Below are positions 19,470 to 46,346 of a DNA stretch of 64,000 nucleotides, one piece after another; positions within the stretch are counted from its first letter, which is position 1; every line of letters starts with the position of its first letter. Origin of the DNA: Rhodococcus gordoniae. Its GTDB lineage: Bacteria > Actinomycetota > Actinomycetes > Mycobacteriales > Mycobacteriaceae. The stretch is taken from the NCBI RefSeq assembly GCF_001646655.1, contig NZ_LPZN01000011.1, forward strand, positions 62,001 through 126,000. Reading direction: 5' to 3'. The notes beneath the pieces were generated by a model. The model searched no databases. It worked only from the letters and a program-made list of their open reading frames with translations, and was not told the origin of the DNA. The translations under genes were made by a program, and so were the position numbers.

Positions 19470-22214
19470 TTACGACACTCCATTCTTCAGCGCAGCCGCG
19501 ATGCGTTCGGCATCCGGCGGGCACATCGTCCACCCCGATTCGGACATCGTACGAGTGACCTCGTCGTCCGATTCGAGGAGGACGCCGATGCGGTTGTTTT
19601 CCCACGCGAAGTCCAGGACGTCGGCTTCGCTGGTCTCGTAGCCGACGGTCGGTACCGGCAGATCGGCTGCGGCGAGGGCGAGCACCAACTGCCTCTCCAC
19701 GTCGGAGACGGTGGCATCGAAGAGTTCCTGCCACTGCGGGGCGAGCGTTATTGTGGTCTGCACGGTGGCAGGATCACCCGTGCGATCCCTGCTGGTGGTG
19801 ATTCCCAGCGTGCTCGATGTCAGCGTGGTCAGCCACTGCGCGATAGTTCCCGTGGTGATCAGACGGTGGAACTGAGGCGCGATGCTCTCGACCTGAAGCG
19901 TCATGCTCACCGCAGCGAGAATATCGTCGGCTGTTGCCTTCTCGATAAAGCCGGATGTTTCCAGATCCAGGATGTTCTTGCCAGGAAGGGCCGCTTGGGG
20001 GTTCGCGACGGTGAACCCGGCGAACGCCTTGGTGAACTCGTCACGGAGGTCACGAGTGTCGTCCTCAGTGGCGGTGGAAGATGAGTATTCCTCCATGGCA
20101 GGAAGGAACTTGGTCAGCTCCGCAAACGGACCGGGTTCTTCGACTGTGTCCTCGGGCTCGGCGGTGTCGTTGTTGCGGAGTGTGAACACCAGGTCGTCGG
20201 TGTCCAGATCGAGATGGTTGAACAGTTTCCGCAGTATCACCAGCTTCGCGCGAGTGGAGTTCCCCGTCACCACCGTCAGACCCGGAACCACCAGTGATTC
20301 CCAGTCCGTGATCTCATGCGAGTCCGATACCAACGTCAGCTCGTTCGAGTCGCCGGCGTAGGCGAAGAGCTCCTCACGGTGGTCCTCGACGAGTGTGCGG
20401 ATCACCTCGACAAAAGCGTCCTTCCAACTCGCGATGGTCTTACGGATGTCGCCGAACTCGAACGAGACGATCTTGCGGTTGGTGAACGACTCGTCGTCGC
20501 CCATTGGGATGGAGGGCAGCGGTGGCACGTACGGTTCGAAGTCCGTGGAGGGCAGCGGCCAGTATTTCAGGGCGATGGCGGTCAGCGCCCTTGTTCGCTC
20601 TTCGAGCTGGGGAACCGTCCACACCTCGGAGCTCTTCAACAGCGCATTGAGACGATACGGCGAGGCATCGAACCCGTTGTCGCGCTTCTTCTTATCTGCG
20701 AACGTTGAGTTGGAGTAGCTGGAGTTGTAGCCGGTCACGGTCAGGTTCCCGATGCGGTTACACCAGGTTGCGTGGATCTCTTCGGCGTCGGGGCCCAGGT
20801 CCTGCCGCCACGCCGAGGTCAGCGTCTGCGGCATGATGTGTTCGATACTGATCGACTGGCCCTCGAGCGCGATGGCGATGTCGTGGGTGTCGTTGGACCA
20901 GTTGTTCTCGAGGCACTCGAACAGGTAGCTGCGGTTCTCGCTCTTGATGTTGTACAGGTTGCGGGTGGCGAATGACTCCTTGAACTCGTCATCGGTCGGG
21001 AAGCGGCCGGAGGCGGCTCGTCGGCGCAAGGAATACGCCAGCACGTCGGAGAACCGGTCTCCTTCGCCGCGGAGGCGGTGAATCTCGGAGTACAGGGTCG
21101 CGAAGATCTTGTTGAGGGCGCTGGTGAGGACACCGCTGACGAAGCGTCGGAACAGGTAGGAATCGAGGATGATGATCACATCGGTGAAGTCCTCACCCGA
21201 CACCGTGCCGGCCTTCACCTCGCCCAGCAGGGGCATGGTCAGCGGCAGCGTCACGTCGTGCTTGACCATGTTGAAGCGACGTAGCCTCTTGTCCGCCGCG
21301 GGAATGCCGGTGCTGGCGGTGTTTAGCTCGCGACTGTACTCGGCGTAGTCCCGCATTTCCGAGAGGATGTCGCGGGTGCTTGCCTTGACGTTATTTTGAT
21401 AGTCGCGGAACGCCTCGTACACGCCGTCCTGTCGAGGAGTTTTGCCTGTCTTCGAAACGAGGTAGAAGCGGATGAACCAGTCAGTGCGGTACTCGACCGC
21501 CTTCTCGATGCGATTCCAGTAGTTCTCGTACAGGTCTTCTTGCTCGTGGCTCGGATGGTGCATGAGCACCACATTGCGGATCTTGTCAGCCTCGCTGAGT
21601 TCGAGGCCGGTTGAGTTGATGCTCTCGAAGATCCGCTGGGGATCATCCTGTTCCTCCAGGTCCAGTGCCATTACCTGGAGGCGGAAGATGGCGTCCCATA
21701 TCTGGTCCCCATCGAGCTCGCCACGTGCGATTCGGTTGCGGAAGTACCGGTAGTTGGCCGTGATGGTGGAGGACTCGATCGGGGTGTCGTTATTGTGCAG
21801 CAAGCGGCTGTATGCAGCGTTGTCGTTCTTGACAGGCTTGAGCTTGAACTTGACGGCATTGTGTTCGTTCTTGAGTACGAGATAACTCTCACGGATCTTT
21901 GTCGATAGATCTGGATCCGTTGAGGTGACGTCGTTGGCATCGAGTGCGTGGACCAAAGCCAGCATGAGCAAGCTGGTGGTGGTCAATCGCTGTTGGCCAT
22001 CGATCACAACGTAAGTGAACGAAGTCTCCGGGTTTCCCACGATCGCACCGAAGAAATGTGTCTTGCGGTCAGTGCGAATGATGTCTACGAGATCGTCGAA
22101 GAGCCGAGCACAGTGCTTTTCCTTCCAGTCGTAATTGCGCTGGTAGACCGGGATCAGAAGGTGCTTGCTGTTTCCGTCGAAGAGATCGGTGATTCGTCTG
22201 ATGCTGCCCTGCAC
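19470..22214 (-). CDS. DUF262/DUF1524 GmrSD-like restriction protein with extra C-terminal domain
   Basis: 914 residues from a GTG with AAGGAAGGG upstream. The N-terminal DUF262 (GmrS/ParB-like fold) shows PVYQRNYDW (22-30) and the NTP-binding signature IDGQQRLTT (71-79). A DUF1524 HNH-type nuclease domain carries 'SIEHIMPQ' (~455-465) and 'GNLTV' (~485). GmrSD enzymes are type IV restriction systems that cut modified (glucosylated hydroxymethylcytosine) phage DNA; the modification recognised here is unknown. The C-terminus has ~200 extra residues. The last ~92 are about two-thirds identical by eye to the end of the DUF1998 helicase encoded just upstream. Stop and next start are adjacent, so this is one operon. 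Confidence 0.85.
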   Translation of the reverse strand: MQGSIRRITDLFDGNSKHLLIPVYQRNYDWKEKHCARLFDDLVDIIRTDRKTHFFGAIVGNPETSFTYVVIDGQQRLTTTSLLMLALVHALDANDVTSTDPDLSTKIRESYLVLKNEHNAVKFKLKPVKNDNAAYSRLLHNNDTPIESSTITANYRYFRNRIARGELDGDQIWDAIFRLQVMALDLEEQDDPQRIFESINSTGLELSEADKIRNVVLMHHPSHEQEDLYENYWNRIEKAVEYRTDWFIRFYLVSKTGKTPRQDGVYEAFRDYQNNVKASTRDILSEMRDYAEYSRELNTASTGIPAADKRLRRFNMVKHDVTLPLTMPLLGEVKAGTVSGEDFTDVIIILDSYLFRRFVSGVLTSALNKIFATLYSEIHRLRGEGDRFSDVLAYSLRRRAASGRFPTDDEFKESFATRNLYNIKSENRSYLFECLENNWSNDTHDIAIALEGQSISIEHIMPQTLTSAWRQDLGPDAEEIHATWCNRIGNLTVTGYNSSYSNSTFADKKKRDNGFDASPYRLNALLKSSEVWTVPQLEERTRALTAIALKYWPLPSTDFEPYVPPLPSIPMGDDESFTNRKIVSFEFGDIRKTIASWKDAFVEVIRTLVEDHREELFAYAGDSNELTLVSDSHEITDWESLVVPGLTVVTGNSTRAKLVILRKLFNHLDLDTDDLVFTLRNNDTAEPEDTVEEPGPFAELTKFLPAMEEYSSSTATEDDTRDLRDEFTKAFAGFTVANPQAALPGKNILDLETSGFIEKATADDILAAVSMTLQVESIAPQFHRLITTGTIAQWLTTLTSSTLGITTSRDRTGDPATVQTTITLAPQWQELFDATVSDVERQLVLALAAADLPVPTVGYETSEADVLDFAWENNRIGVLLESDDEVTRTMSESGWTMCPPDAERIAAALKNGVS
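19473..19750 (-). repeat. Copy 1 of duplicated 3' gene segment (shared C-terminal domain)
   Basis: About 275 bases encoding the last ~92 residues of the GmrSD-like protein. They are clearly similar in DNA and protein to 22280-22556, the end of the DUF1998 helicase gene. Long runs around the 'ESGWTMCPPD' codons are almost identical at base level. This implies a rather recent duplication or ongoing gene conversion between neighbouring genes. Confidence 0.85.
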
Positions 22215-22276
22215 TGGTTAGCCCTTCCTTGAGACCGCTGCGCTTCTATATTCGTTGCGATGGCCAGGTTCGCTAC

Positions 22277-25200
22277 TCACGAACCTGCACGCTTCACCAC
22301 TGCTGCGATCTGTTCGACATCTGGCGGGCACATCGTCCACCCCGATTCGGCCATCGTACGAGCGACCTCGTCGTTCGGCGCGAGCAGCACGCCGATGCGG
22401 TGTTCGCCCCACGCGAAGTCCACGACGTCGCCGTCGTCGGTCTCGTAGCTCAGCTCGGGGACGGGCACGCCGCTCTCGGCGAGCGCGAGGACGAGCTGCT
22501 TCTCGGCGTCGGAGACTGTGGAGTCGAACAACTCCTGCCACTCTGGGCTGAGCGTGGCGGCCGTCGGTGCCTCGACGGGGGCGCTGGTGTCGAGCTCCAA
22601 CAGCTTCCGGGTGGTGATGCGGTGGCTGCCCCCGAGCCCGAACCAGTTAGACAGCCGCAGCCATTCCTTCCAGGCGCGGCCGTCGAGGATCTCGAGCTGA
22701 TCGTCGTGGTCGTCCACGACGACAACGGCATTCATTGCGCGGGTGCCCGTGCGCATGGTGGCGGTGACGGTCAACGGTCCGTCGGTATATGACCAGCACA
22801 TGTCGACGCCGTCTCCGAACGAGGGTTTGCCGCCGTTGAGGAGATCCAGCGCGGCGGCGGCGATGGTGTCGCCGTCACCCTTGCTGCGGTTGCTGCCGCC
22901 CACGAATCCGAACGGCAGCCAACGACCGACGGTTTCCCACGCTTCGAGGTCGGGGTCGCTGATGAACGCGAGCAGCATCGTGATCGGGTCCGCGGACAGC
23001 AGTTTGACGAGTGCCGGCCGGAGGTTGCCTGCCTTCATCATGTTGGTGGTGGCCTGTTCGGAGAGCCACGTCGGTGTGGCGGCTACGTTCTCCTTGAACC
23101 GCTGCAGGTCCTCGTGGCCGAACGACCACACCAGATGGCCGCTGTCGCGCAGGATGGCCCGCTTGCCCGCATCGTCGGCAACGCGATTGCAGCCGGCCAT
23201 CGCGTGGTACTTGCGGCCATCGGCGAACAGCGCGATCCGCGGGATCTCCGGATCGGTGGTGCTCAGCTCGTAGTCGGGCTTCGAATTGGCCATGTGCACC
23301 TGCGGAGTGAGCTTCCAGGTGCGGATCTTCTTGCCGGGCAGCACAACCGTCGCAGACGGACCGTAAGTGCCGGGGGATTCCTTCACGGTCGCACCGATGG
23401 ACCGGAGCCGCTCCACGAACGCGGCGTAGAACTCCTTCTCCAGCGGTGATTCCTCACTACCGACCGGTTGGGACGGGGCTTCCTCGGTGACGGCGTCGAG
23501 CCACGCCTGCCGATCAGGTTCCGCGTCGTTGTCGACACCGAGGATCTGTTCGAGGACCCGCAGCGCGACCTTCCGCGACACCTTGTCGAGTTCGTGCGGG
23601 GGAGAGAACGGCAGCAGGCACTTGTGGCAGGCGAGCCGGTCGTGTTGGGAGCAGTCGCAGTCGCGCACCACGGTGCGCGCGGCGTCGAGCACCGCCCACA
23701 CCTTCGCCGGGTCGGCGAACTCGGCGAGGTATCCGGTGCCGCCGGGCACTGTGTCGTGGATCAGCAGCGCGCGTTGCGTCGGTGCGTAGAGGGCGTCGGT
23801 GATGGTGACGACGTCGAGGTGTTCGGGGGAGCCGCCGATCACCTGCCGAAGACCGAGCAGGATCGCCGCGCTCAGGCTGGGATGCGCGAACATGTCGTAT
23901 TCGAGCGAGCGCGGCAGGTGCAGCAGCACCCCCTGGGTGCGCAGGGTGCGGGCGAGCGCGATCTCCCGCACATGCTCGGTCGCGGCGTTGCGGTGCCGGC
24001 ACCAACTGCGGTGTTCGTAGCGGGAATTGCGGCCCGCGGCCTTGTCGAGCTGTCCGCACGAGGAGCACACCCGGAACAGGCCGGTGGTGGTTTCCTGCCC
24101 GGCGATGTGCCGGGTGCGGCCCTGTGACGTGCGCCGACCCATGTTCAGCCAGCGAACATCCATGCGGCGCAGGTACTCCGCGCCGAACTCGTGCTCCTCG
24201 ACGAACCACGCCCGGTCCACGTTGACGGGGTCGATGTCGGCAGCGGTGACGACGGTGAACGATTCCTTGTGCCGCTCGTCGCGGGAGTCGTTGATCGACG
24301 CCTCGTCGCGACGGACCTCAGCGGACACCCGCGCCATCTCGACGACCTGCAGTTGCTGGCTGACGTCGGCGATGGCCCCGGTCCCGCAGCGGGGGCACGA
24401 ATGCAAGATCGGGGGTTCCTCCCCGGCGAGGGTGATGCCCGCCCACCCGCACTGCGGGCACAGCCGCCACGTGTGGATGTTGGACTCGCCGGCACCGAGG
24501 TCGACGGCATCGATGCGCGCCGCAAGGCCCTGCGCGTAGAAGGTGGCGCCGGGGGCGAGTTCGGTCAGCGCGACGCGGGAGCCGCGCTGATAACTGGTGG
24601 CCTCACCCATGTACTGGTTGGTGTCGGGGTCGATCCAGGTGACGCCGACATCGAGGGTGACGGAGTCGTCGAGCAGCGTGTAGTTGGGCAGTACGCCGTA
24701 GCGTTCGAGGACGCTGATCCAGTAGTCGTCGGTGAGGTCGTGGATCTGCCCGCCGAGCAGGCGCAACGACCCCTTGGCGGTGCGCAGGTCGCGCAGGTCG
24801 TCGTCGGTGGCGGCGGGCGAGGCCGCGCGGCGCTCGAACTCGGACATCTCGGCTTCGACGGCGGCGCGTCGTGCGGCGAGTTCGGTGAGGTCGCGGTTCC
24901 AGCGGTGCACGGCCTCCTGCAGATCAGTGACGAGTCCGCTGGGCATCCCGTCGTCACCCGGGGTTGCCCAGGTGCGCAACGAGTCTCGGGTGTGGGCGTC
25001 GAGGACTTCGTCGAACTGGGCGAGGAATTCGTCGACCTGCTGATCGGCGTCGGTGTCCACTGCGGTGAGCAGACCGGCCATCCAACTGTCCGGGTCGAAG
25101 CTGCCGAGCACGGCGCGGGCGCCGCGCGGGGCGACGGTGTTGGGGTCGCGGGCGAGCCGGTCGATGACGTGCGCGACGTACTGGCGTTGCAGGATCTCCT

Positions 25201-28200
25201 CGGCGGTGAGGAAGGTCGCGGGCGGGCGGACGTCGCCCTGGATCACCGATGTCGGGTCGTACAGTTTCGGCAGGTGCTCACCGCGACCGCGGACGAACGC
25301 GAGGACCAGCGAATTGCCGGTCAGGCGTCCGGCGCGGCCGACGCGCTGCAGATACGACGAAACGGTGCGCGGCAGCGAGCCGAGCATCACCGTGGACAGG
25401 TCGCCGATGTCGATACCCATCTCGAGCGTCGGGGTGGCGACGAGGACGTTGGGGGCCTGCGGGTCGGCGCCGCCGCGTTTGAACGCGGTTTCGTAGCCCA
25501 ATCGGGTCGCGGTGGGCAGCAGGGAGGTGTGCTCGCGCGCGACGACCCGCTTCATCTCGGAGCTGTCGTAGAGGCTCCGGTAGAAGTTCTGTGCCTTCGG
25601 TGCGCGGGTGAGCGTGCCGGGGCAGCGGACGAGCAGGCACGGTGCGCCGTCGAGCTCGTCGACGACCGTGGCCGAACCCGGGGTGGGGGTTTGGCACACG
25701 CTGCACACCAGCAGGTGCCGGCGGGCGGCGAGGTCCTCGTCCGACGGAGCGGACACGGTGATTGAGGTGGGCGGCAGTCCGTAGGCGGTGAGTCCGCTTT
25801 CGGTGAGGACCGCGGTGAGTACTCGTTGTTCGGCGAGGACGGAGAACAGCGACCGCGCGAGGAAGCTGCCGTCGAACGGGGAGACGTCGAGGCACTGCGA
25901 CGCCCAGCGTGCGTACCAGGAGGAGACAGCGGTGATCGCGTCGAATCCTTCGGGGACCGTGCGTGATCCGATCGCGGGGAACGCGGGGGCCGGTCGGCCC
26001 TTGGGGAATGCGGGCATGCCTTCACCTTTGGGGCGTGCGCCCCACACCCAGCGGCGGTTGGCGTCCTTCTCGATGTATTTGAGCAGCCACGGGTGACGGA
26101 TGGCGCCGCGGGTGCGGACCCGCTCGACGGTGCCGCGGACCCAACGAGCGATGGCTGCGTTGTCCGGAGGCGTGAGCGAGAGCTGGTGTTCGGTGGCGTT
26201 GAGGGCAGCACGACCGAGCCGCACCGGTCGCTCCGCGCCGCCGAGATCGACCTCGGCGACGGTGCTGCCGGTGAGCTCGAGTGTGCGGCCGAGCCTCGAC
26301 TGCAGGCCGAATTCCAGATCGATGTCGAATTCGAGCCGCTTTCGCACCTTGTCGGTGGCGTTCTTTCGGGCCTGGTTCGGCGCGTCGGCTTTCCAGAACG
26401 GGGTGAACTCGTCGTGATCGACGATGTCGGGGGCGAGGAGGTGGTAGCGGCGGGCCGGGTCGTCGCCGGCACGTGCGATGACCGCATCACGTAGTTCGGG
26501 CAGGCTCAGCGCGGAATCGCCGAGGGCGCTGCGCAGCGTCGAGCGCAGGCTGAGGGTGTGCGAGCGGGCCTGCACGAAACCGGCGCGATGCGCGGCGTCC
26601 TGCACGCTGTCGGTGAACATCAACGCCTTCTTCTCGTCGGCGTCGAGGGAGGCGTCGCCGAACAGATTCGACAGTGTCACCGAGAGCTGGGTGGCGACGG
26701 CACTACCGAGGAAGCGGATGCCATCGGCGACACCGCAGGCCGGGCACATGTCGTTCTTGGAGTCCTCCTCGGCGTTCTCGCCGGTGAGGACGAGCACCGG
26801 CAGGACTTTGCCTTCGAGTTGTTCGGTGCCGTCGGGGTCGGGCGCATCGTCGGAGATTTCGCGGTCGTCGATGCGGAACCAGCGCAGACCCTCGATGGGT
26901 GAGTCGGGTCGGGTTGCGGCGAGTAGCGCTTCGGCGGGCGCGGAGATCAGCGCGCGGAAGCGGGACGCGCCGGCGGCGTGGTCGGCACGGATGGCGTCGT
27001 CGGTGACGTCGAGGGTGTGCCCCGTAGGCGCGAGGCGCGCACCCCATCCGGAACGACCGCAGTGTCGGCAGAAAACTGCCGGTAGGTGCATGACGTCGCC
27101 GTCTTCGTGGACGCCGTCGTCGGACCAGCGGTAGGACGTGGCGGTAGCGACGACCCGGTCGATGCGGGACAGCTCCCGAATCCACAGGTGCACATCGACG
27201 CTCAATGCGGCACGGCCGACTTCGGCACGGATGTGGGAGAGCGCTGCGAACAAATAGTCGAGGAAGCGTTGCTGCGCAGCGCGGACGCGGCGGGTATCGC
27301 GCTCGGAGGCGGGTGCGTCGAACAGAGCCTCTGCGAGGTCGGCGAGAGAGATCGCGTCGACGGCCTTCTCGAGTAGTCGCCGCATCAGCGGATGGCCCTT
27401 GAGCAGGTGTAACTGTTCGGCGGCGTCGAGGTGTCGCAACTCTGTGGGAGAGAGACGATGGTCCGTGTCGAGGTCGTCGGCGCGCTCGAACAGTTCCGCG
27501 AGCATGGCCGCCGTCAGCGCGGCGTTTCCGAGGGCTTCGGCGCTGTCGTCGAGGCGCGCGGAGGTGTCGGCGACGGGCGGCGAGATCGGCCGGTAGAGCC
27601 GATCAAGCGCAGTGTCGCGATCAGCGAGCCACTCGGACGGGCTCAGCCGGGTCTCACCGATCACGGCGTCGGCGTCGAACTTTTCGCCGAAGACGGTGTG
27701 TGCAAAGTCGAGCATCGCGGTGGGTGCGGCTTTGGAACCGAGGGTCGCGGAGGTCGCGACGGGGGTGATGAGGCCGAGGGGGCGAGCGCGATCGTCGTCG
27801 GTGACAGGCGAGGCGTCGGTCCAGTGGGCTTTGACTGTGAGGCCAAGGCGGCGAAGGAGCATCGCGACGTCGGTGCCTTGCGCGCCGTCGTAGGTGTGGA
27901 ACTCGTCGAGAACGACGTACTGCAGCGAGTCCGCCGAGAGACGCCAGATGTCGGCACGGTCAGGGTGCAGTAGCAGGTGGTCGAGCATCTTGTAATTGGT
28001 GAGCAGGATGTCCGGAGGAGCGGCGTGCATCAACGAGCGGTCGGTGATGAGGCCTTCTTCGGAGACCTTGGTGCGTCCACCGGTGGATTGTTCGCCGGTG
28101 TAGAGACCGGCGGAGACACCCGAAAGTTCGGGGTGTTGGGTGATGAGTCGGGCGAGCCGTTCGGCTTGGTCGTTGGCGAGCGCGTTCATCGGGTAGAGGA

Positions 28201-34985: not shown

Positions 34986-34987
34986 GC

Positions 34988-37888
34988 CTACTGGTCCTTT
35001 CCGTTGGTCTGAACAGCAGGAACGATCAGGAGCAGCGGACGCACCAACTGCTGGGTGGGGGCGAGAGATTCGGCGAGGCGTTGTTCTTCCGCGATCCGTC
35101 GCGACAACACGTCCACCTTCTTGCGTTGCCCGCCGAAGAGTTCGAGCTGTTCGGCACCGGAGTGCCATCGGTCGGCACGCTTACGCCACCGATCGAGCCG
35201 TTCGGTGGCGGTGGCCTCCTGCGCGTCGAGCACCATCTGCATCGCCGTTGTCGCCTCGTCCACCGCGATCGGGACCAGCGTGCGGTACTGCTCGGCGTTC
35301 GGCACGGGACCGGGATTCGCGGACCCCGCCCGCAGTCCCGTGTCGGTGGTGAGGAAGTCGAGGTCCGCGAGCGTTTCCACCACACAGAACGACAGATTGC
35401 TCGGATTGGGGAACGCGGCGGTCGAGAACACCCGCGAGATCAGCTGCCCGCGCCGGTTCATCAAGGTGCCCATCAGCAGCACCGTGGGGGCGTGCACGTC
35501 GCCGCGGATCACGAAGATCTGATTGCGGCCCAATGCGCTCAGCGCGCGGTCGCTGGCCCAGTCCAAGACCGGGTGTAGCGGGCCGAGGTAGTGCGCCTCC
35601 GGCCACGTCGTACCCGCGACACCCTTGCCCTCCCGCGCGGAAGCGAGCTGGGCGTTGCCGATCTCGGGGGACGTGGCGAGGGTGAGACGTTCGAGGACCT
35701 TGCCGTGCTGCAGGTAGTTCTGCGGCAACTGGGCCAGACGCTGCCGCAGATCCCGTGGCGGCGTCAGCTCAGCGACCGCATGATTGGCGTGCACCGTCCA
35801 CCCGACACCACCGTCCTCGAGCCTGGCGTTCGGCACATCGTGGAACGCGGCCTTGAGTGCCTCGTCGAGGAAGGTGAGGTCGTCCGGGTACAAGCTCTGC
35901 CGCGGTGCCTGTGGCAGCGCGGCTTCCGGTGCATCGTCAGCGGTTTCGTCGAGGTCGAACTGCGCGAAGAACGCATCCAGGTCGTCGCCGTCGGCGACCT
36001 CGTCGATGTCGCGGATCTGCTCGTCGAGGGTGGACTTGCCGACCAGCACGTCGCGGATCGCATTCTCCTCGTCGGTCACCGAGTGCTTACCCATCAGCGA
36101 CGCGACGTCGCCGAGGGTGCCGTGCGCCTGGTTCTCCCGCTCGAGCAATCGGGAAAGCACCCGCAGGTCGCCGGAGAAGTCCGGGTCCGACGGTTCGAGG
36201 ATCAGCGACGAGATCACCGGTGGATGCTTCTGCCCGTACCGGTCGACGCGACCGTTGCGCTGTTCGATGCGGATCAGCGACCACGGAATGTCGTAGTGGA
36301 TCAGGTGATGACACTGCGCGTGCAGGTTCACGCCCTCGGATGCGACATCGCCAGTGACGAGCACCCGGATCGGGGAGGTCCCCAGCTTGAAGCTGTCGAC
36401 GATCTCCTGCTGCTCCACGTCGGACAGGCCGCCATGCAGCATCGCGACGTTCTCGGCCTTGAGACCCAATGCCTTCGGCAAATGCTCGGAGAGCCACCGC
36501 AGCGTCGCGACACGTTCGGCGAACACCACCGCCCGAATCGGCGATTTCGCGCCGACGCCGATGCCCTTTAGTCGCTGAACCAACGCGGCCTGCTTGCCGG
36601 CGGACTCGTTCAACGCTTTCGCATTGAGTTCGTCGAGTGTGGTCAGTGCCGTCAGCTCGGTGGCCTGTACGGGGTTGTGCGGGTCGAGCTTGTTGCGGCG
36701 TTGCTTGATCGACTCCGCGAGCGCGGCGGGGGAGGACAGGAATGCCTTCGCCAACGTCCACGGGAACAATGCCCTCGTCTCACCCGAGTACGGGGAGCTA
36801 CCCGATTCCGGATGCAGCCAGGTTTGCGAGAGTTCCTGCGCGACGGCATCTTCCGCTGGGGACGGCGTGACCAGCATGTGCACCGGCTCGGCGCGTTCGG
36901 CCCAGTCGCTGCCGACCTCCGCAGCCACCTCCGGGTGGTGGCGATGCCGGCGGATCAACAGGGCGGCTACGTCGTCTTTGGTGAACGAGCCGTCGGCTGC
37001 GACCGCCGTCGGATCCAGCAGGCGCAGCAGCTCCGCGAACGACTCTTCCCGTCCGTTGTGCGGGGTGGCGGACGCGAGGATCAGTGCTTCGGTGTTCGGG
37101 GCGAGGACACGGGCCAGCTCATTGTTCTGGGTGCCGACGTTGGTGAGGTTGTGCGACTCGTCGATCACCACCGCATCCCAGTGCTGACGCTGCAGGTGCG
37201 CCTTGTAGCGGGGGCTCTTGAGCGTGTCGATCGAGATGATGGCCCGCTTGAAGTAGGTGAACGGGTTGCGGGTGGCGGGCAGCTTCTGCCGCACCTTCTG
37301 GATGCCGGCCGAGTCCAGGCGAACGAACGGCAACGCAAATCGGCACCACAGCTCGTGCTGCATCTGCTCGAGCACATGCTTCGGCGTGACGATGAGGATC
37401 CGCTCACCGCGGCCGCGTCGCACCAGCTCCGACAGGATCATGCCGATCTCGAGGGTCTTGCCCAGGCCGACCGCGTCCGCGATGAGGATGCGCGGGCGGA
37501 TGTGCTGCGGGTCGAGGGCCATCGCCACCGCGGCCCGCTGATAACCCAGCGAGTCGGCGAGCATCTGGGTCGACACCGTCAAAGTCTGATCGCCGTACGG
37601 GAACGGCGTCTTGCGCAGCAGCGCTTCGAGCCAGAGCCGCGACTTGCGGTATCCGGAGGAGTCGTCGGCGATCACCTCGGTGTCGCGCGGATTCTGCACC
37701 TTGATCTTGTCGAGGCTCGAGTAGAACGTCGCCGTGGTTTCCGCGACCAGTTCCGACAGGCCACGTGCTTTGACCAGCCATCCGTCCGATCCTTGCTCGG
37801 CCGATGTGACCAGCCACTCCTCATCGCGGACGACCACGATCGAGCCCGGGGCGACGTTGAGCTCTTCGCTCGGTACGGAGGTGGTCAT
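34988..37888 (-). CDS. SNF2-type helicase (DISARM DrmD-like)
   Basis: 966 residues from an ATG at 37888 with AGGAG ten bases upstream; an in-frame extension to 37951 is rejected because it would start beyond this site. SF2/SNF2 motifs: Walker A ADAVGLGKTLE (~140-150), DESH (~240) and a C-terminal block 'TGDVASEGVNLH' to 'RNGRVDRYGQKH' (~508-556). The protein starts with a small SH3-like beta domain. SNF2 proteins translocate on double-stranded DNA. In class 1 DISARM a protein of this type (DrmD) precedes the adenine methyltransferase, as here. It is the first gene of the six-gene minus-strand operon. Confidence 0.85.
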   Translation of the reverse strand: MTTSVPSEELNVAPGSIVVVRDEEWLVTSAEQGSDGWLVKARGLSELVAETTATFYSSLDKIKVQNPRDTEVIADDSSGYRKSRLWLEALLRKTPFPYGDQTLTVSTQMLADSLGYQRAAVAMALDPQHIRPRILIADAVGLGKTLEIGMILSELVRRGRGERILIVTPKHVLEQMQHELWCRFALPFVRLDSAGIQKVRQKLPATRNPFTYFKRAIISIDTLKSPRYKAHLQRQHWDAVVIDESHNLTNVGTQNNELARVLAPNTEALILASATPHNGREESFAELLRLLDPTAVAADGSFTKDDVAALLIRRHRHHPEVAAEVGSDWAERAEPVHMLVTPSPAEDAVAQELSQTWLHPESGSSPYSGETRALFPWTLAKAFLSSPAALAESIKQRRNKLDPHNPVQATELTALTTLDELNAKALNESAGKQAALVQRLKGIGVGAKSPIRAVVFAERVATLRWLSEHLPKALGLKAENVAMLHGGLSDVEQQEIVDSFKLGTSPIRVLVTGDVASEGVNLHAQCHHLIHYDIPWSLIRIEQRNGRVDRYGQKHPPVISSLILEPSDPDFSGDLRVLSRLLERENQAHGTLGDVASLMGKHSVTDEENAIRDVLVGKSTLDEQIRDIDEVADGDDLDAFFAQFDLDETADDAPEAALPQAPRQSLYPDDLTFLDEALKAAFHDVPNARLEDGGVGWTVHANHAVAELTPPRDLRQRLAQLPQNYLQHGKVLERLTLATSPEIGNAQLASAREGKGVAGTTWPEAHYLGPLHPVLDWASDRALSALGRNQIFVIRGDVHAPTVLLMGTLMNRRGQLISRVFSTAAFPNPSNLSFCVVETLADLDFLTTDTGLRAGSANPGPVPNAEQYRTLVPIAVDEATTAMQMVLDAQEATATERLDRWRKRADRWHSGAEQLELFGGQRKKVDVLSRRIAEEQRLAESLAPTQQLVRPLLLIVPAVQTNGKDQ

Positions 37889-38028
37889 GTGCTGGTGACT
37901 CCTGGCGTTCGACAGTTTGATGTACCAACTTAACGTTTGCGAACGAAACACTTGTTACATGACCTTTTCGTGAGGTCTGTCGGTTTGGTGTGCGAAGGTG
38001 TCGGCGGGCTGGTACGGGAGGAGTTTTC
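37889..38028. promoter_or_regulatory. Divergent promoter region between two defence modules
   Basis: 140 bases separate the SNF2-type gene's ATG (minus strand) from the TTG of the plus-strand module. Positions ~37915-37975 are clearly more AT-rich than the surroundings (AACTTAACG, AAACACTTGTTACATG), as expected for back-to-back promoters. I cannot assign -35/-10 boxes with certainty. No regulator gene is encoded nearby. Expression of both modules probably starts here. Confidence 0.5.
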
Positions 38029-41000
38029 TTGAGTGGGGCGTCGTTCAGACAGCAGTGGCTGTCCGACCAGGAGTTCGAGATCACGCGGCGACTGGAGAAG
38101 GCGTCTCTCGTAGTCGAGATCAACCTCGATGAGGACGAGATCCGGCGTGCTCAAGACATGTACGGTCGCCAGGCCGCCGAGATGTTGCGTGTGGGCAAAG
38201 CCGCCGAGGATGTCATCGCCAAGTACCCCGCACTGACGCTCGCCATCCTCGTCGGTCAGGCGGCCCTGGGATACGAACAGCATCGCTACTGGGACGAGTT
38301 CTTCGCCCGGCTCGACCTCCCGCGCGAGCAGACCTTCGAACAAGCGCTCCGCAAGTCGCTCGAGCGCCTCTTGACGCGGTTCACGCTGCGCAAGTTCCCC
38401 GAGCTGAAGAACGACTACGTGCAGTTGATGGCCCTGCACGCCGGCTTCCCGGTGTATTGCATGGGCGACATCATCGACCTCCTCGAGGAACGTATGGTCG
38501 CAGGTACGGAGGCCACGGGCGCGGCGATCATCGAGTGGTTGCGCGAACCGGGCAAGAAGCACCGGATGAACTCGTTGGATGTGCCTGTCCGCAACTTCAT
38601 CCTGTACGGCGACCAGCTCGCGGTGGACATCCTCAACCGGATCATCGAGTTCGTCCAGTTCACGGTGGACAACGAGGGGTGGGCTGCTTCGGAGATCGAC
38701 CTCGAGACATCCACGACCGGGCTGCCGACGCTGCTGCTCGACAAGCTCATCGAGCTGCTGCGCGATCGGCCGTTCGGAAGCGGACCGCGGCCCGTCACAC
38801 CGCGAACCCGGCGTCGACGCAAACCGACGATTGCATACCTGCCGCTGGATCGGCAGATCGTCGTCGAGGTGCCATACCCGGATGTCGAACCCGACGTGCC
38901 GTGGCGCGTGTCGTTCGACGGAGTATCTCGGGAGGCTCTGGCCGAACGCGGATGGGGTGTCCGTGCCGACGAGGAACATCCGCCGACGCAGGTCCCCGTC
39001 ACCGGTCCCGTCCGCGAGATCTTGCTGCAGCACGTACCCAGCGAGGAGTCTGCTCAGCTCTCGGTGATCGACAAGGACGACCCGCTGCTGATCTTCGACC
39101 TCGATGGTCGATGGATCCCCCGTCACACGGTGCTCCCGCGCCAGTGCGTGCTCGCCGTATACCCCAGCGATGCTCAAGTGGTCGATACGGCCACGGGGCA
39201 CACGCTGATGCCGACCTTCACCCCCGACGTCCCTGTCGGTTGGACCGGTTGGTCCGTCGCCGAGCTCGACCTCTCGACATGCAGATCTATCGTTCTGACT
39301 CGGCGCGGTTCGCGCGCGCCCGGTGGAGTTCGCACAGTCCGCGACGCGACGACTCCGACCTTCGAACACGGCGAGGCTGTCGACGGGTTGCAGACCCTCA
39401 ACGGTCTCACCGTGTACGGATCGCGTCCGGAAATCACACTGCCTGCCAATCCCGGCAAGCAGGAGATGGTCTGGCGCATCCGTGTGAAGCGGCCCGACTC
39501 GTCCGGCTGGATGGTCGATACCGAAGTGCACGGAACGGACGAAGAGCTCGTCGTCGATCCTTTCGAACCGATCGAGGACGCAGTGCTGGGTCTCTTCGAG
39601 ATCCACGTTTCGGGTCCGATCGGGTCTGATCTGCGGCAGCAGGCGTTCCTCGCCGAAGGTATCTCGATCGAGTACACCCGTCCGTTCCGCTTCCCGGTGG
39701 CCGGAGGTCTCGCCCCAGTAGTCGCTACCGTGAGCAGCGAATGGGACCTCGCGGTGCCACATCCGCGCGTCGAGTTCGCACCGGGCGATCGCGACAAGCT
39801 CGTGACGATCACGCAGCGTGAGCGTGCCTATCGGCTGCGAGTGACTCCGCCGTACGTGCAGATGCGCGTCGATCCTGTGGGCGCGGCTGCGGCATGGCGC
39901 ACGGCAGCCGCAGTCCTCACGCCGGCCGAACTCGACGAAGACCGGAACCTCGCTCTGCATGCTCCGAAGTCGGAGGCCGCGGTCTTTCAACTGGAGACTG
40001 TCGACGGCGCACTGATCAAGGATGTCACTCCTGACACCCCGCATTACGACTACTTCCAGGCCCCCAGTCGTGTCTTCGTCGACGCTGCCCGGACAGCCGG
40101 TCAATGCCGCATCGTCGCCCTCGTCGACGACGAACACGGCCGTACGACGAAAATTGTTCTGGCACATATTCGACCGGCAGCGCTGTGCACGGGAATGACC
40201 GTCGACGACGGTGTTCTGGTGCTGGAGAATCCGGCCGAAGAAGAAGACCTCGCCGTCTATCTCTGGGCCCGCACTGCTCCGTGGCTGCCTGTACAGACGG
40301 TCCAGGTCACCGAGGGGCGTGCCAAACTGCCCGAAGCCTATGTCGATGCCGGGCCTCTGCTCGCGCACGTGTTCGTCGACGATCCGTGGGTGACGGTCAC
40401 GCCCCCGTCCTGGCCGGGGGACAACGCCCTCGAGATCGACCAGCCCGGATGGATGCACGACCTGTCGCGCGAACGCGACAATCTGTCACGCTTCCTCGCT
40501 GGCGAAGGTCCGGCACCGGCCGACGCCGTGAGCATGCCCGAGGTATGGGCTGCGTTGGCTCTCCTCCCTCAGGATTCGGAAGACGTCCACACCCAGCAGT
40601 TGCGGTCCGCGTTGGGTCGTATCCTCTCCGAGAACCCGCGGGCGGCGCTCGAAGCGCTCGGGAGCAGCACGATTCCGTTGCCGGAAATGATGGCACTTCT
40701 CATCCGCACTGGGCTGGTGTACCGCAGTTTCGCGGCGGACTTCACGATGAACGATCTGCACCCGAATCCGTGGGTGGGCTGCATGATCGAGATCTCCGAC
40801 CTACCTTCCCTGTACGACCGGCGCGACTACGTGGCAGCCGAGCGCGCGGAGACACTGGACTATTTGGAAGACAAGGGTGGAAAGACACTCATCGAAGTAC
40901 TGATGAGAGGTAAGTCCGCCAAGCTCTACGGCGGTGTCTTCGACAAGGACACCATCCTGCTCGACGGGATGCCTGCATCGCAGGTCGAGTCGATCTTCGA

Positions 41001-41442
41001 ACACGCTCGTCTCGTCCCGGGCGCCGTTCTCGACGAGGACACGCGTGTCAGCGCAGTCATCGACGCGTTCCACAATCGCAGGACATGGATCGAGCAGGGA
41101 TGGTCGCAGTCCTTCGGCTCGGCCACAGTGCGGACGCTCGAAGTCATCAAACGCACCCGAGGTCAGATCTACAGGGAAGTCGCCGCACGCAACGAGAAAC
41201 TCGAGGGTGTCAGCACAGGGAAACACCCCTGGATGTTGTTGTCCCTCCAGTCGCTGACCTTCGCTGTACTGGCGCGCATGAAGGCCCACGACATGCTGCG
41301 GCACCCACCTGTCACATCGGACTTCGAGGAAGCGTGGGCAGTGATGGCCCGACTGTGCCCAGGTCTCGTGATGACAGACCTCCTCATCGCTGAAGCTCTT
41401 GTAACACACGCCTGCTACGGCAATCTGATCGGAGAGAACTGA
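38029..41442 (+). CDS. Large uncharacterised defence protein (Druantia DruH-like candidate)
   Basis: 1,137 residues. The TTG at 38029 is chosen because GGGAGGAG lies five bases upstream; the longer GTG start at 37990 has no such site. The N-terminal ~250 residues are helical. The middle is beta-rich with repeated sandwich-like stretches, and the C-terminal ~300 residues are helical again. I see no nuclease, helicase or ATPase motif. The stop overlaps the ATG of the DUF1998 helicase by one base, so the two are obligately co-expressed. A large protein without recognisable domains directly before a DruE-type helicase is the arrangement of Druantia type III (druH-druE). That parallel rests on gene order and size, not on verified homology. 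Confidence 0.6.
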   Translation: MSGASFRQQWLSDQEFEITRRLEKASLVVEINLDEDEIRRAQDMYGRQAAEMLRVGKAAEDVIAKYPALTLAILVGQAALGYEQHRYWDEFFARLDLPREQTFEQALRKSLERLLTRFTLRKFPELKNDYVQLMALHAGFPVYCMGDIIDLLEERMVAGTEATGAAIIEWLREPGKKHRMNSLDVPVRNFILYGDQLAVDILNRIIEFVQFTVDNEGWAASEIDLETSTTGLPTLLLDKLIELLRDRPFGSGPRPVTPRTRRRRKPTIAYLPLDRQIVVEVPYPDVEPDVPWRVSFDGVSREALAERGWGVRADEEHPPTQVPVTGPVREILLQHVPSEESAQLSVIDKDDPLLIFDLDGRWIPRHTVLPRQCVLAVYPSDAQVVDTATGHTLMPTFTPDVPVGWTGWSVAELDLSTCRSIVLTRRGSRAPGGVRTVRDATTPTFEHGEAVDGLQTLNGLTVYGSRPEITLPANPGKQEMVWRIRVKRPDSSGWMVDTEVHGTDEELVVDPFEPIEDAVLGLFEIHVSGPIGSDLRQQAFLAEGISIEYTRPFRFPVAGGLAPVVATVSSEWDLAVPHPRVEFAPGDRDKLVTITQRERAYRLRVTPPYVQMRVDPVGAAAAWRTAAAVLTPAELDEDRNLALHAPKSEAAVFQLETVDGALIKDVTPDTPHYDYFQAPSRVFVDAARTAGQCRIVALVDDEHGRTTKIVLAHIRPAALCTGMTVDDGVLVLENPAEEEDLAVYLWARTAPWLPVQTVQVTEGRAKLPEAYVDAGPLLAHVFVDDPWVTVTPPSWPGDNALEIDQPGWMHDLSRERDNLSRFLAGEGPAPADAVSMPEVWAALALLPQDSEDVHTQQLRSALGRILSENPRAALEALGSSTIPLPEMMALLIRTGLVYRSFAADFTMNDLHPNPWVGCMIEISDLPSLYDRRDYVAAERAETLDYLEDKGGKTLIEVLMRGKSAKLYGGVFDKDTILLDGMPASQVESIFEHARLVPGAVLDEDTRVSAVIDAFHNRRTWIEQGWSQSFGSATVRTLEVIKRTRGQIYREVAARNEKLEGVSTGKHPWMLLSLQSLTFAVLARMKAHDMLRHPPVTSDFEEAWAVMARLCPGLVMTDLLIAEALVTHACYGNLIGEN

Positions 41443-44400
41443 TGTCGACTCGACTCGACCCGTTGGTCACTGCGCGCCAGATCGATGAGACCTACAAGCG
41501 GTACCTGAAGACACTGCTCGGTCCGAGCGATCCTGCGATGGCGGCTGCATTCGATTCGGCGATCGACGAGACACGTCTCCTCACCAAGGGACCGCTGTTG
41601 GAGCTGACCCCTCCGTATGCGCCGGGCAAGTCGATTCCGGAGCTCATCGCGGAAGGGGTGCTGCAGCCCGGATTGACTGCGCTGTACAAGAACCCTGATG
41701 ACCTGAGCCGGCCGCTCTATCAGCACCAGGAACGAGCGATCCGCAAGGTCACCTCGGGTCGCAATATCGTGGTGAGCACCGGTACAGGTTCGGGTAAGAC
41801 CGAAAGCTTCCTGCTCCCGATCATCAACTCGTTGATCGCCGAACGCGAGGCCGGCACCCTCGGACCTGGCGTGCGTGCTCTTCTTCTGTATCCCATGAAC
41901 GCTCTCGCCAACGACCAGCTCAAGCGCCTACGCGGGATGCTGAAGGACCTTCCGGAGATCACTTTCGGGCGCTACACGGGTGAGACCGAGCAGTATGCCG
42001 ACAAGGCCGAGAGTCTGTTCCGGGCTACGAACCCGGGGCAGGAGCGGTGTAGCAACGAACTGCTCAGTCGTGAGGAAATGCGGACCCACCCGCCACACAT
42101 CCTTCTCACGAACTACGCCATGCTCGAGTACCTCCTGCTGCGACCCGCCGATCTCGACCTTTTCGACGGACCCTATGCCGGTACGTGGAAGTTCATCGCT
42201 CTCGACGAGGCTCACGTCTACGACGGTGCGCAGGGTTCTGAGGTTGCCCTTCTGCTCCGGCGCCTGAGGCAGCGGGTCGCGCCGAACAACTCCCTGCAGT
42301 GCATCGCTACGTCCGCGTCGCTCGATGGCGATCCAGAAGAGGCGATGACGTTTGCACGCAATCTTTTTCATGCGGACTTCGAATTCGTCGAGGACGATCC
42401 TGCTCGTCAAGACCTGGTGACCCCAACGCGTCTGGAGCGGCGCGAGCCCGCCACCTGGCAAATGACCGACGCCGAGCTGATGGACTGGGCCAGGCCGGGG
42501 GCTGACCTCACCGAACTGGCTTCGCGCTCGCCAGATAGCGACGCCGCTGAGGCGCTGCATTCGGAGAAGACCATCGTGTCCTTGCGTGAGACCTTGGCTG
42601 AGGGGCCTCTCGATGCCTTCGCATTGGCAGATCGTTTGTGGTCCGGTGACCCGCACGCAGGCGAAAGGCTCCAAGCGCTCGTCACACTCGGTTCCTCGGT
42701 GATGGACTCGAGTGGGAATCCGGTGCTTTCCGCGCGGTACCACATGTTCGTGCGCGCCACGGAAGGTGCCTTCGTCAGCTTCGGCGACGACGAGCCGACA
42801 GTGCTGTTGGGTCGACATGAGATCGATCCGACGACTCGGCGCGCGATGTTCGAGTTCGGTACCTGCCAGCGCTGTGGGGCCGTGCACCTGGCCGGTGAAG
42901 TCTCGATTCGCAAAAACGGAAAGTTCTTCACTCCGAGTGTCAAGGAAGACGCATCGGTGAAGTGGTTGGTCCTCACCGATGCGCCGGACACAAGCGTGGA
43001 CGAGGACGAGGAAACGCTGGGCGACAGCGCCACTACGCATGAGTCCGGGGTCCGATACCTGTGCACGGGGTGCGGCCTGCTGAGTGACTCGGACGGCTTG
43101 TGCCCGATCGCCGACTGCCCCGGCGGTGAATTTCGCCGAGTACGTGAACATCGCGGCACTAAGAAGGTCATGAGCACCTGCACCGAGTGCGGAGGCAGTG
43201 CGCGCCAGCTCATTCGTCGATTGCGTACGGATGTCAATGCTGCACCATCGGTTATCACCACAACGCTGTACCAGCAACTTCCGGCCGCAACCGATGAGAC
43301 CGTCAAGGAGGTGGGGGAGGGTAGGAAGCTTCTGATGTTCTCCGACTCCCGTCAAGCCGCAGCATTCGCGGCGCCTTATCTGGGCCGCACATACGGGCGA
43401 CTTCTCGAGCGTCGCTATCTGACCATGGCGCTACAGGACCGTAAGTACGCAGACGAGGATCTCACAGTCGAAGACCTCGCTTATGTCGCGCAGAAGAAGG
43501 CCAAGGCGGCGCATCACTTTCCCCAGACGGCCGGCCGGGTCGTGATGGAGAAGGCCGCGAACGAATGGGCCATGGGCGAGCTCATGACGATGGACCACAA
43601 GCAGTCCTTGGAAGGTCTCGGGTTGATGCGGGTGGCTATTTCCCGGGACAACGTCACCGTGCCGAGGGGTCTTATCCAGCTCGGCCTGTCGGAGGACGAG
43701 TCGTGGGACCTCATCGACGAACTCCTCAAGACCGTTCGCCTGCAGGGCGCAGTGAATCTCCTGGACGAAGTCGACATCCGCAGCGAGCGCTTCGAGCCCC
43801 GCAACATGCGAATCCGAATCACCCGTGTGGGTTCCAGCCCGAAGAGCAAGGTCCTGTCGTGGCTTCCGAGTGGACGCGCGAACGGAACGAACAATCGTGT
43901 CCGCTTCATGTCCAAGGTGTTGGCCGAACTCGGTAAGGGCATGGATTCGACCAAGGTTCTCGACGGTTGCTGGCGTTTCCTACTCGACAACGGGTTCGTC
44001 AAGCATGAACCCGACAAGTTCGAGGCCGACGCTTACCAGATCGATCACACGAGGCTCGCGGTTCACAACGGAATGGACTGCCACTGGCATCGGTGCGATA
44101 CCTGTCGGCGCATCACTGCGTTCAATGTGCGAGGGGTGTGCCCCAACAGCAGTTGCACAGGGAAGCTGCTCCCGTACGAGGTTCCTCCGCTCGAACGGGA
44201 CACCAACCATTACCGGAACATCTACGGCACTCTCAATCCCGCCCCGCTGAGGGCGAAAGAGCACACCGCGCAATGGACAGCGCGGCAGGCGGCGGAGATC
44301 CAGCGCGAATTCATCGACGGCAAGGTCAACGTGCTGTCGTGCTCGACCACATTCGAGCTGGGTGTCGACGTCGGTGACCTGCAAGCCGTAGTGATGCGCA

Positions 44401-46346
44401 ACATGCCACCCAAGACTGCCAATTACGTGCAGCGCGCAGGACGTGCCGGCCGTCGAGCGGCGTCGGCGGCGCTCGTCCTGACCTACGCCAAGCGCAGTTC
44501 CCACGATCTGTCCAAATTCCAGGACCCGAAATCGATGATCGCAGGCCAGATGCGGATCCCTTGGATTCCCATCGAGAACGAACGGATCGGTCGACGCCAC
44601 GCCCATTCCGTCGCGTTGGCCGCATACTTCAGGCACGGTGTCGAGGCGACCGGAAAGCCCTGGACACAGGCAGGTCAGTTCTTCCGGGCGGATACTGAGG
44701 GCGGTGTGTCTCCCGCTGCGCAGGTGAAGGACTTCCTCACCCCTGTCCCCGAGCAGATGCGCGAAGACCTCCGAAGGATTCTTCCGCCTGAGGTACGTCA
44801 ACAGATCGGGGTGGAGAACGACGAATGGGTCGATTACCTCGCCGACCTCTTGGACAAGGTCGAGAAGGACGTGGAGAACGATTTCCAGACTTTCCGTGAA
44901 CTGATCGAGGAAGCAAAAACCGCGGAACAGTTCCGGGTCGCCGATCATCTGCAGAAGACACTGCGCACGATCGACGAGCGCCAACTTCTCGGATTCCTCG
45001 CGAACAAGAATATTCTGCCGAAATACGGATTCCCGGTGGACACCGTCGAATTGAGAACCCAGCACTGCCAGGAGCCGGTCGGGCGGAACCTCGAGCTGTC
45101 ACGTGACCTGAGTCAGGCGATCTACGACTATGCTCCGGGCAACCAGATCGTCGCTGGCGGAAAGGTGTGGACCGCGCGCGGCGTTCATCGAGTGCCGAAG
45201 CGTGAACTCGAACAGTTCGAGTATCGAGTGTGCCGAAACTGCGACAGATTTGAAGCGGCGCATACTCTCGATGCGGGTGAAGTATGCGGTGGTTGCCAGG
45301 AGCCGTTCACTTCGATCCAACGGTTCGTCATCCCCGAGTACGGTTTCGTTGCGGATGGCAAGGCTGACGATGTAGGAACTGCTCCGCCGGAACGCAAGTG
45401 GAATGGCGCCAGCTACGTCGAGGACATCGGTGAGGTCGTCGACACCTTCACCTGGAAGTCCACGGGTGGTATCACGGTCGAAGCCAAGGCCGGAGTCCGT
45501 GCCCGCATGGCAGTGATTTCCGAAGGCCAAGGCGCCGGTTTTGTGCTGTGCAAGTGGTGTGGTTGGGCGACACCTCATTCCGGACGTAACACTGTCCGCA
45601 CACACGAGCGTCCGGCCACCGGAAAGGCATGCGACGGACCGCTCGACCGCGTGTCCCTCGCGCACCGTTACGAGACGGACGTTGCCGAGTTCACATTCGG
45701 AGATGTGAATTACGACAAGGAAACCGAAGCGCGTTGGCTTTCGGTTCTCTACGCCCTTCTGGAAGGGGCGTCCAAGGTGCTCGAGATCAGTCGAGATGAC
45801 ATCGACGGCACCTTGTCCTGGAGTCGCGACGGGCGCAGAAGCATCGTGCTGTTCGACACGGTGCCTGCCGGTGCCGGGGCAGCCAAGAAGATTGCCGAGA
45901 ATCTGGAGACTGTTCTCGCGGGGGCGATCGAGCGTCTGAATTCGTGCGACTGTGGTGAAGAAACGTCATGCTACGGATGCCTCCGGACCTACCGGAACTC
46001 CAAGCATCACGACAAGTTGACTCGCGGCGGAGCGCTCACCATCTTCCGAGAGATCTCGATTGCCGGTGGAACATCGACACCATGGCAAGAAGCACTCGAC
46101 CTGGTGGACAGTGAGGCGCGACCGTTGCTGTCGCACCTCGCAGAGTCCGAAGTGACAGTCCCTGAGATCGGCGTCGAAATGGGTGACGGTTGGCTCGTAG
46201 AAATCATGTGGAAGAACGAGAAGCTCGCAGTCCTCGTTGGAGACGACAGCGATCGCGACGAGTGGTTGACCACGAATGGGTATGACTCTGTGCCACTCGA
46301 GCAGGCCGATGTCGCCACCTTGATCGCGAAACTGACACTCGACTGA
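41442..46346 (+). CDS. DEAD/DEAH helicase with DUF1998/MZB region (DruE-like)
   Basis: 1,634 residues. SF2 helicase motifs: Walker A TGTGSGKTES (~113-121), DEAH (~255-258) and 'GVDVGDLQ...QRAGRAGR' (~974-1004). CxxC zinc-type pairs occur at ~475, ~540, ~575, ~885 and ~1270. Near the end is the DUF1998 zinc cluster CDCGEETSCYGCLRTYRNS (~1503-1521) preceded by 'DTVPAGAGAAKKI'. The last ~88 residues match, at moderate similarity, the terminal domain of two proteins in the opposite module. Helicases of this type drive DNA processing in Druantia and DISARM. Followed by a strong hairpin terminator. Confidence 0.8.
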   Translation: MSTRLDPLVTARQIDETYKRYLKTLLGPSDPAMAAAFDSAIDETRLLTKGPLLELTPPYAPGKSIPELIAEGVLQPGLTALYKNPDDLSRPLYQHQERAIRKVTSGRNIVVSTGTGSGKTESFLLPIINSLIAEREAGTLGPGVRALLLYPMNALANDQLKRLRGMLKDLPEITFGRYTGETEQYADKAESLFRATNPGQERCSNELLSREEMRTHPPHILLTNYAMLEYLLLRPADLDLFDGPYAGTWKFIALDEAHVYDGAQGSEVALLLRRLRQRVAPNNSLQCIATSASLDGDPEEAMTFARNLFHADFEFVEDDPARQDLVTPTRLERREPATWQMTDAELMDWARPGADLTELASRSPDSDAAEALHSEKTIVSLRETLAEGPLDAFALADRLWSGDPHAGERLQALVTLGSSVMDSSGNPVLSARYHMFVRATEGAFVSFGDDEPTVLLGRHEIDPTTRRAMFEFGTCQRCGAVHLAGEVSIRKNGKFFTPSVKEDASVKWLVLTDAPDTSVDEDEETLGDSATTHESGVRYLCTGCGLLSDSDGLCPIADCPGGEFRRVREHRGTKKVMSTCTECGGSARQLIRRLRTDVNAAPSVITTTLYQQLPAATDETVKEVGEGRKLLMFSDSRQAAAFAAPYLGRTYGRLLERRYLTMALQDRKYADEDLTVEDLAYVAQKKAKAAHHFPQTAGRVVMEKAANEWAMGELMTMDHKQSLEGLGLMRVAISRDNVTVPRGLIQLGLSEDESWDLIDELLKTVRLQGAVNLLDEVDIRSERFEPRNMRIRITRVGSSPKSKVLSWLPSGRANGTNNRVRFMSKVLAELGKGMDSTKVLDGCWRFLLDNGFVKHEPDKFEADAYQIDHTRLAVHNGMDCHWHRCDTCRRITAFNVRGVCPNSSCTGKLLPYEVPPLERDTNHYRNIYGTLNPAPLRAKEHTAQWTARQAAEIQREFIDGKVNVLSCSTTFELGVDVGDLQAVVMRNMPPKTANYVQRAGRAGRRAASAALVLTYAKRSSHDLSKFQDPKSMIAGQMRIPWIPIENERIGRRHAHSVALAAYFRHGVEATGKPWTQAGQFFRADTEGGVSPAAQVKDFLTPVPEQMREDLRRILPPEVRQQIGVENDEWVDYLADLLDKVEKDVENDFQTFRELIEEAKTAEQFRVADHLQKTLRTIDERQLLGFLANKNILPKYGFPVDTVELRTQHCQEPVGRNLELSRDLSQAIYDYAPGNQIVAGGKVWTARGVHRVPKRELEQFEYRVCRNCDRFEAAHTLDAGEVCGGCQEPFTSIQRFVIPEYGFVADGKADDVGTAPPERKWNGASYVEDIGEVVDTFTWKSTGGITVEAKAGVRARMAVISEGQGAGFVLCKWCGWATPHSGRNTVRTHERPATGKACDGPLDRVSLAHRYETDVAEFTFGDVNYDKETEARWLSVLYALLEGASKVLEISRDDIDGTLSWSRDGRRSIVLFDTVPAGAGAAKKIAENLETVLAGAIERLNSCDCGEETSCYGCLRTYRNSKHHDKLTRGGALTIFREISIAGGTSTPWQEALDLVDSEARPLLSHLAESEVTVPEIGVEMGDGWLVEIMWKNEKLAVLVGDDSDRDEWLTTNGYDSVPLEQADVATLIAKLTLD

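Follow-up and report, generated by a model that had tools for sequence, protein, structure and literature searches.

Introduction

ARMADA II, Druantia III and Zorya II are defence systems whose co-occurrence, together with synergy between pairs of them, has been published. According to Bell et al. (2025 preprint, PMC12458937), the ARMADA II helicase ends in an active Vsr domain, behind which an inactivated EEP and an inactivated Vsr domain often come. As for Zorya II, an extension was found on 53 of 59 Druantia-III-associated ZorE proteins, in which nuclease-like residues were remarked and to which no family could be assigned (PMC13192584). The ZorE extension marks a 'synergy-competent' subset, again with no family given. 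ARMADA II, its inactivated Vsr and the ZorE extension without a family are already known. In the open-licence literature, no paper was found that links the dead Vsr of ARMADA II with the ZorE extension or a GmrSD-like protein with such a tail, nor was any physical link between ARMADA II, Druantia III and Zorya II found to be described there; the main text of PMC12458937 does not mention GmrSD, DUF262 or ZorE.

This paper describes a 64,000-nucleotide stretch of a Rhodococcus gordoniae contig (NZ_LPZN01000011.1, positions 62,001 to 126,000), hereafter the window, in which two DUF1998 helicases and a GmrSD-like protein carry one and the same C-terminal domain, here called the tail.

The ARMADA type II operon and its helicase

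By predicted products and their order, the minus-strand genes at 17229-37951 fit the definition that PMC12458937 gives of ARMADA type II. They comprise SNF2/BrxHII, a PglX-like methylase, a YprA helicase and a UvrD/GajB-like helicase, with two genes added, and the same four-gene order is seen, within the fetched stretch, in most tail-bearing relatives and also in the island of E. coli ATCC 8739.

34988-37951, minus strand: SNF2/BrxHII/DrmD-like helicase of ARMADA II
30345-35168, minus strand: PglX/type IIG-like methyltransferase of ARMADA II (the listed ORF may begin ahead of the true start)
28612-30354, minus strand: OLD/AAA_15-like ATPase, between the methylase and HelA, a place where the relatives examined have no such gene
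22277-28627, minus strand: HelA, the YprA/DUF1998 helicase of ARMADA II, 2116 aa (Pfam DEAD, Helicase_C, MZB)
23084-23449, minus strand: upstream Vsr-like domain of HelA, residues about 1727-1848 (family naming after PMC12458937)
22586-23083, minus strand: middle domain of HelA, between the Vsr-like domain and the tail
19470-22214, minus strand: GmrSD-like protein B (DUF262 + DUF1524), 914 aa, between HelA and UvrD (Pfam GmrSD_N 4e-34, GmrSD_C 2e-25)
17229-19469, minus strand: UvrD/GajB-like helicase of ARMADA II (Pfam UvrD), operon position conserved

HelA aligns with the ARMADA II YprA of E. coli ATCC 8739 at E 2e-200 and is laid out as a DEAD helicase, MZB, a Vsr-like nuclease that retains its catalytic residues, the middle domain and the pseudo-Vsr tail. 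In the upstream Vsr-like domain the PD, DG..H, D and KR motifs are invariant in 14 relatives, and the middle domain probably corresponds to what PMC12458937 calls 'inactivated EEP'. The body of this helicase was found at 31 loci in 297 genomes of the class, and the tail profile matches 29 of the 31, the helicases without a match being those of genomes G369 and G628; ARMADA II helicases normally carry the tail. Because an inactivated Vsr is already named on these helicases in PMC12458937, tail A of HelA is by itself not new. The window operon shares with the published type II the gene order and the C-terminal Vsr plus dead Vsr of the helicase, but differs from it by the inserted OLD-like ATPase and by a GmrSD-like gene with an inactivated Vsr.

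Several observations concern the surroundings. Genome G981 has, at the methylase/helicase spot where the window has its OLD-like ATPase, a different, tail-less DUF262 protein (L159:12597-14600), so this gap looks like an insertion hot spot. Locus L157 has two UvrD/GajB-like genes in succession after the ARMADA II helicase (12963-15470 and 16441-18780, minus strand). ARMADA II is described with a RelE-like domain at the N-terminus of its GajB-like helicase; no RelE match by Pfam was found in the first 120 aa of the window's protein, and the E. coli GajB-like helicase gave a ParE_like match below threshold only. About 8 kb before the window, a 1516-aa ORF ends in an MTES_1575 nuclease domain (G000:C12:53760-54041), and large proteins similar to it occur in most of the same-genus genomes searched.

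The plus-strand DruE-like block

Divergent from this operon, a second helicase gene follows a gene for a large protein.

37990-41442, plus strand: 1150-aa protein, no Pfam domain, occupying the place of DruH before the DruE-like helicase
41442-46346, plus strand: HelC, a DruE-like DUF1998 helicase, 1634 aa (PADLOC DruE1 8e-186, DruE3 4e-173)

With a DruE-like helicase, a large protein in the DruH position and ARMADA II adjoining as in E. coli, the block resembles Druantia III, but HelC is without PLD domains and its pseudo-Vsr tail comes directly after MZB. Relatives of the 1150-aa protein adjoin DruE-like genes in loci L063, L157 and L161; no homology of this protein to E. coli DruH was detected by profile comparison. 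The spacer between the listed ORFs of the two blocks is about 40 bases (37952-37989), and the divergent ARMADA II operon and DruE-like pair are possibly co-regulated. Just after the DruE-like gene, a 262-aa ORF (46851-47639, plus strand) matches the model of a type IV methyl-directed restriction enzyme (PADLOC PDLC03662, E 7e-19).

Three homologous tails

The earlier note on this DNA had proposed that three different proteins end in the same domain, and the three tails lie in frame where it had placed them.

22280-22573, minus strand: tail A, 98 aa including a linker (core W.. at 22280-22540), C-terminus of ORF 22277-28627
19473-19766, minus strand: tail B, 98 aa (core W.. at 19473-19733), C-terminus of ORF 19470-22214
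19734-19817, minus strand: linker joining tail B to the GmrSD-like protein
46050-46343, plus strand: tail C, 98 aa (core W.. at 46083-46343), C-terminus of ORF 41442-46346

The proposal is borne out. When the last 130 residues are compared by blastp, A and B are 62% identical (E 1e-41; 74% at the DNA level) and A and C are 29% identical (E 6e-11), so that the plus-strand tail, whose alignment had been named as the test, does align. Tail A also recovered tail C from the window by tblastn at 1e-8, and the BLOSUM62 scores of the three pairs lie above those of all 2000 shuffles (z = 60, 16 and 14); B and C, which gave no direct blastp report, are significant in this shuffle test. By their sequences, then, the tails of helicase A, GmrSD-like protein B and helicase C are homologous. 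A tblastn search of plasmids with tail A gave no match, and a scan of the genome contigs returned one locus.

A dead, acidic Vsr-type fold

A resemblance to Vsr/DUF559 nucleases had also been suggested, and profile-profile comparison supports it. The helicase-tail profile used for hhalign, which comprises 33 sequences, aligns with MTES_1575/DUF559 domains at E 7e-8, 94.6%, in the expected register; the E-values of hhalign are those of single comparisons, and the comparison set was picked by Pfam and not via the tail profile, since a set found with the tail would be biased. Taken alone, the small sets of ZorE, E. coli YprA and DrmB tails gave no significant profile-profile match to DUF559, to which they connect via the large tail set. 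The tail is out of reach of every Pfam model, and sequence searches of the PDB gave chance matches only for the tail and none for ZorE.

The AlphaFold2 model of the tail (pLDDT 88) has the order aa-bbb-a-b-a. Its best PDB folds include I-Bth0305I, AbaSI, PvuRts1I and NGO0050, which are of the Vsr/DUF559 type. The statistical support is modest: Foldseek gave 3r3p with probability 0.95 and TM 0.54 and 3hrl with TM 0.62, the best E being 0.09 and none lying under 0.001. The first catalytic acid is kept as D/E in 40 of the 44 tails compared, while no tail of the 44 has Glu at the second catalytic place, in agreement with the suggested replacement of the catalytic Glu by Leu, and the DG..H loop is shortened. 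Compared with Vsr, DUF559 and REase_MTES_1575 nucleases, therefore, the tail is alike in fold and in the register of its DF/GW motif, but differs in having neither the second catalytic acid nor the DG..H loop and in being strongly acidic. Its net charge is negative in all 44 cases, with a mean of -11, where the upstream Vsr domain of these proteins has +0.2 and MTES_1575 has -3. That the tail is a degenerate, inactivated nuclease fold of Vsr/DUF559 type is supported by the profile-profile comparison together with AlphaFold and the fold search.

The suggestion of an inactivated-nuclease tag is supported for the dead nuclease fold but not for a DNA-binding role. A tag that directs all its hosts to common phage DNA intermediates would suit a fold derived from a nuclease, but it is made very improbable by the strong acidity of every tail beside a neutral adjoining Vsr domain and by the loss of the DG..H loop, and acidity rules it out as the lead reading. 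The same acidity could be read in the opposite way: the tail might mimic DNA, occupying the DNA channel of its host or of a neighbouring protein and keeping the nuclease or helicase off until phage DNA displaces it. In favour are the uniform, strong acidity on a nuclease-derived fold and the C-terminal position, and the activity of E. coli DruE rises when an acidic patch of its CTD is neutralised (PMC13192584), which is an analogy only as DruE is tail-less; but one plug would have to fit every host from helicases to HNH nucleases, and this reading is considered unlikely.

The tail on other defence proteins

Outside ARMADA II helicases, the carriers of the tail are DruE-like helicases, DrmB, ZorE and a pair of proteins that stand free; most of them adjoin ARMADA II. 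In E. coli ATCC 8739, the YprA tail aligns with ZorE of the same island by blastp (5e-9) and by profile-profile comparison (2e-10), and ZorE2, the only PADLOC family matched, is matched by all four tails tested. The C-terminal 'nuclease-like' extension of Zorya II ZorE is thus homologous to the tail: it has no family in PMC13192584, and what it aligns with in this analysis is the dead Vsr tail on the ARMADA II helicase from the same E. coli island. Tail-bearing ZorE also occurs on Vibrio and Pseudomonas plasmids, where the stretches read show neither ARMADA nor Druantia annotated nearby; a viral scan with ZorE found none.

A tail-bearing DrmB (DISARM) of 701 aa in genome G640 adjoins DrmA and lies 1 kb from ARMADA II, and a second is present in Arthrobacter OVS8; within a sample of 50 DrmB, one has the tail. 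Tail-bearing DruE-like helicases lie near ARMADA II genes in the window and in genomes G641, G949 and G981, while that of G263 has no ARMADA II genes in the approximately 44 kb read. The tail of the G641 DruE-like helicase groups with ARMADA tails and not with other DruE-like tails, which suggests a swap; the deeper joins of the tail tree are unsure because of long branches. Furthermore, the middle domain plus tail can stand free. A 357-aa ORF of this kind lies between SNF2 and UvrD at L063:2667-3737 (minus strand), and a 403-aa protein at L161:14995-16203 (plus strand), which has neither a Pfam nor a PADLOC match, adjoins tail-less DruE-like genes and a DUF262 gene. The L063 locus is without the methylase and the helicase core and has a DruE-like pair upstream, as in a hybrid or decaying system.

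The possibility that the tail is a domain of all DUF1998 helicases, which the earlier note had named as a refutation, is ruled out by the tail-less E. coli DruE and L161 DruE-like proteins and by the rarity of the tail in DrmB.

Origin of the tail on the GmrSD-like protein

Protein B has, in residues 1-550, both domains of the GmrSD / DUF262-DUF1524 type IV restriction enzymes, whose activity is the cleavage of DNA with glucosylated hydroxymethylcytosine, and is probably a modification-dependent nuclease. It differs from those enzymes by a linker and tail of 115 residues from HelA. Its closest relative found outside ARMADA, on the Rhodococcus plasmid pCP3, is 69% identical and tail-less, and stops exactly at B residue 799, from where B continues for the 115 residues of linker and tail. 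A further trace lies directly after the HelA stop codon.

22241-22276, minus strand: relic of the UvrD 5' end, which agrees with the first 36 bases of the UvrD gene at 26 places, exactly in register

The local score of this relic was reached by 2 of 5000 shuffles at any offset, and it is present in the same register in G1082, a genome of another genus of the same family. In G649 the helicase directly adjoins UvrD with no GmrSD between, and the tree joins A and B as sisters, nested among the helicase tails of G641/G649. Since the fusion point comes after the native C-terminus and the UvrD relic stands behind HelA, tail B derives from a duplication of the HelA 3' end. As read from the genes, these comparisons show that the HelA 3' end and the UvrD start were duplicated around the incoming GmrSD-like gene on its entry into the operon. 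The earlier idea of a common tag joining two modules stands in part: helicase and GmrSD-like protein are linked beyond adjacency, by duplication and by concerted evolution, but they do not form two modules, since B is inserted into the ARMADA II operon itself.

Concerted evolution in two genera

G1082 has the helicase, the GmrSD-like protein with its tail and UvrD in identical order. Between the window and G1082 the bodies are 84% (GmrSD) and 85% (HelA) identical, and the tails of the same protein 57% and 60% in amino acids; inside one genome, the A and B tails are 69% and 77% identical. Of the informative tail sites, 26 group by genome and 4 by protein (p 6e-5), and 25 of the 26 that group by genome lie in the second part of the tail. 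As far as aligned sites can tell, this shows that tails A and B have changed in concert in each genome since the duplication. Their synonymous sites are homogenised too, with a low synonymous distance in the second part, which indicates gene conversion and does not by itself prove selection. The tail has a dN/dS of about 0.4 and its reading frame is kept open in the two genera. In a comparison with L155:7185-7544, the tail at 22280-22573 is 57% identical in amino acids versus 85% for the rest of the helicase, and so diverges faster.

From these data it could be argued that tail B is a by-product, an insertion scar which keeps the translation context of UvrD and stays alike to tail A through gene conversion, with no common function. 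The UvrD relic with its exact junctions, the homogenised synonymous sites that gene conversion predicts, and a tail diverging faster than the bodies (57% versus 84-85%) would fit such a scar, but the open frame in two genera with its dN/dS does not, and the tails on DrmB, ZorE, DruE-like and free-standing proteins are left unexplained by it; it is held to be improbable, somewhat more so than DNA mimicry.

A possible docking module

One acidic dead-nuclease domain recurs on chemically different proteins near the same helicase system, and docking to a common partner is the simplest explanation of this and the best-supported reading. By sequence comparison, there is about an even chance that the dead, acidic Vsr-type tail, whose native place is at the end of the ARMADA II helicase, serves to dock proteins. 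It would bind a basic surface of a partner common to several hosts, and this partner might most likely be an ARMADA II subunit, for example, guessing from gene order, the UvrD/GajB-like helicase encoded just downstream. A tail-bearing protein, here the GmrSD-like nuclease, would in this way be brought to the same DNA-processing assembly. Against docking stand the two ARMADA II helicases, out of 31, without a tail match, the tail-bearing plasmid ZorE with no ARMADA neighbour visible, and the possibility that gene conversion between direct repeats could keep A and B alike without selection. In addition, no stable ZorE-Druantia complex was found in PMC13192584, where the partners reported are Druantia proteins only; this is qualified by the lack of a tail on E. 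coli DruE.

More broadly, and more tentatively than docking itself, the portable acidic dead-Vsr domain is proposed as a docking code used in common, within one island, by ARMADA II, Druantia-III-like and Zorya II systems and by some of the DISARM and type IV kinds. In this picture nucleases of unrelated families would join the ARMADA assembly by copying the domain from its helicase, the tails then co-evolving within each island.

Significance

The identity of the ZorE extension with the ARMADA II helicase tail, together with a natural GmrSD-like fusion that shows concerted evolution, provides a small and well-delimited domain for deletion, exchange and pull-down work. If the tail docks, it would be a plug-in rule for defence islands which could predict pairings of nucleases and helicases, and if the docking code is true, it would give a physical basis for the reported synergy. 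The tail may be a common plug through which separate defence systems cooperate.
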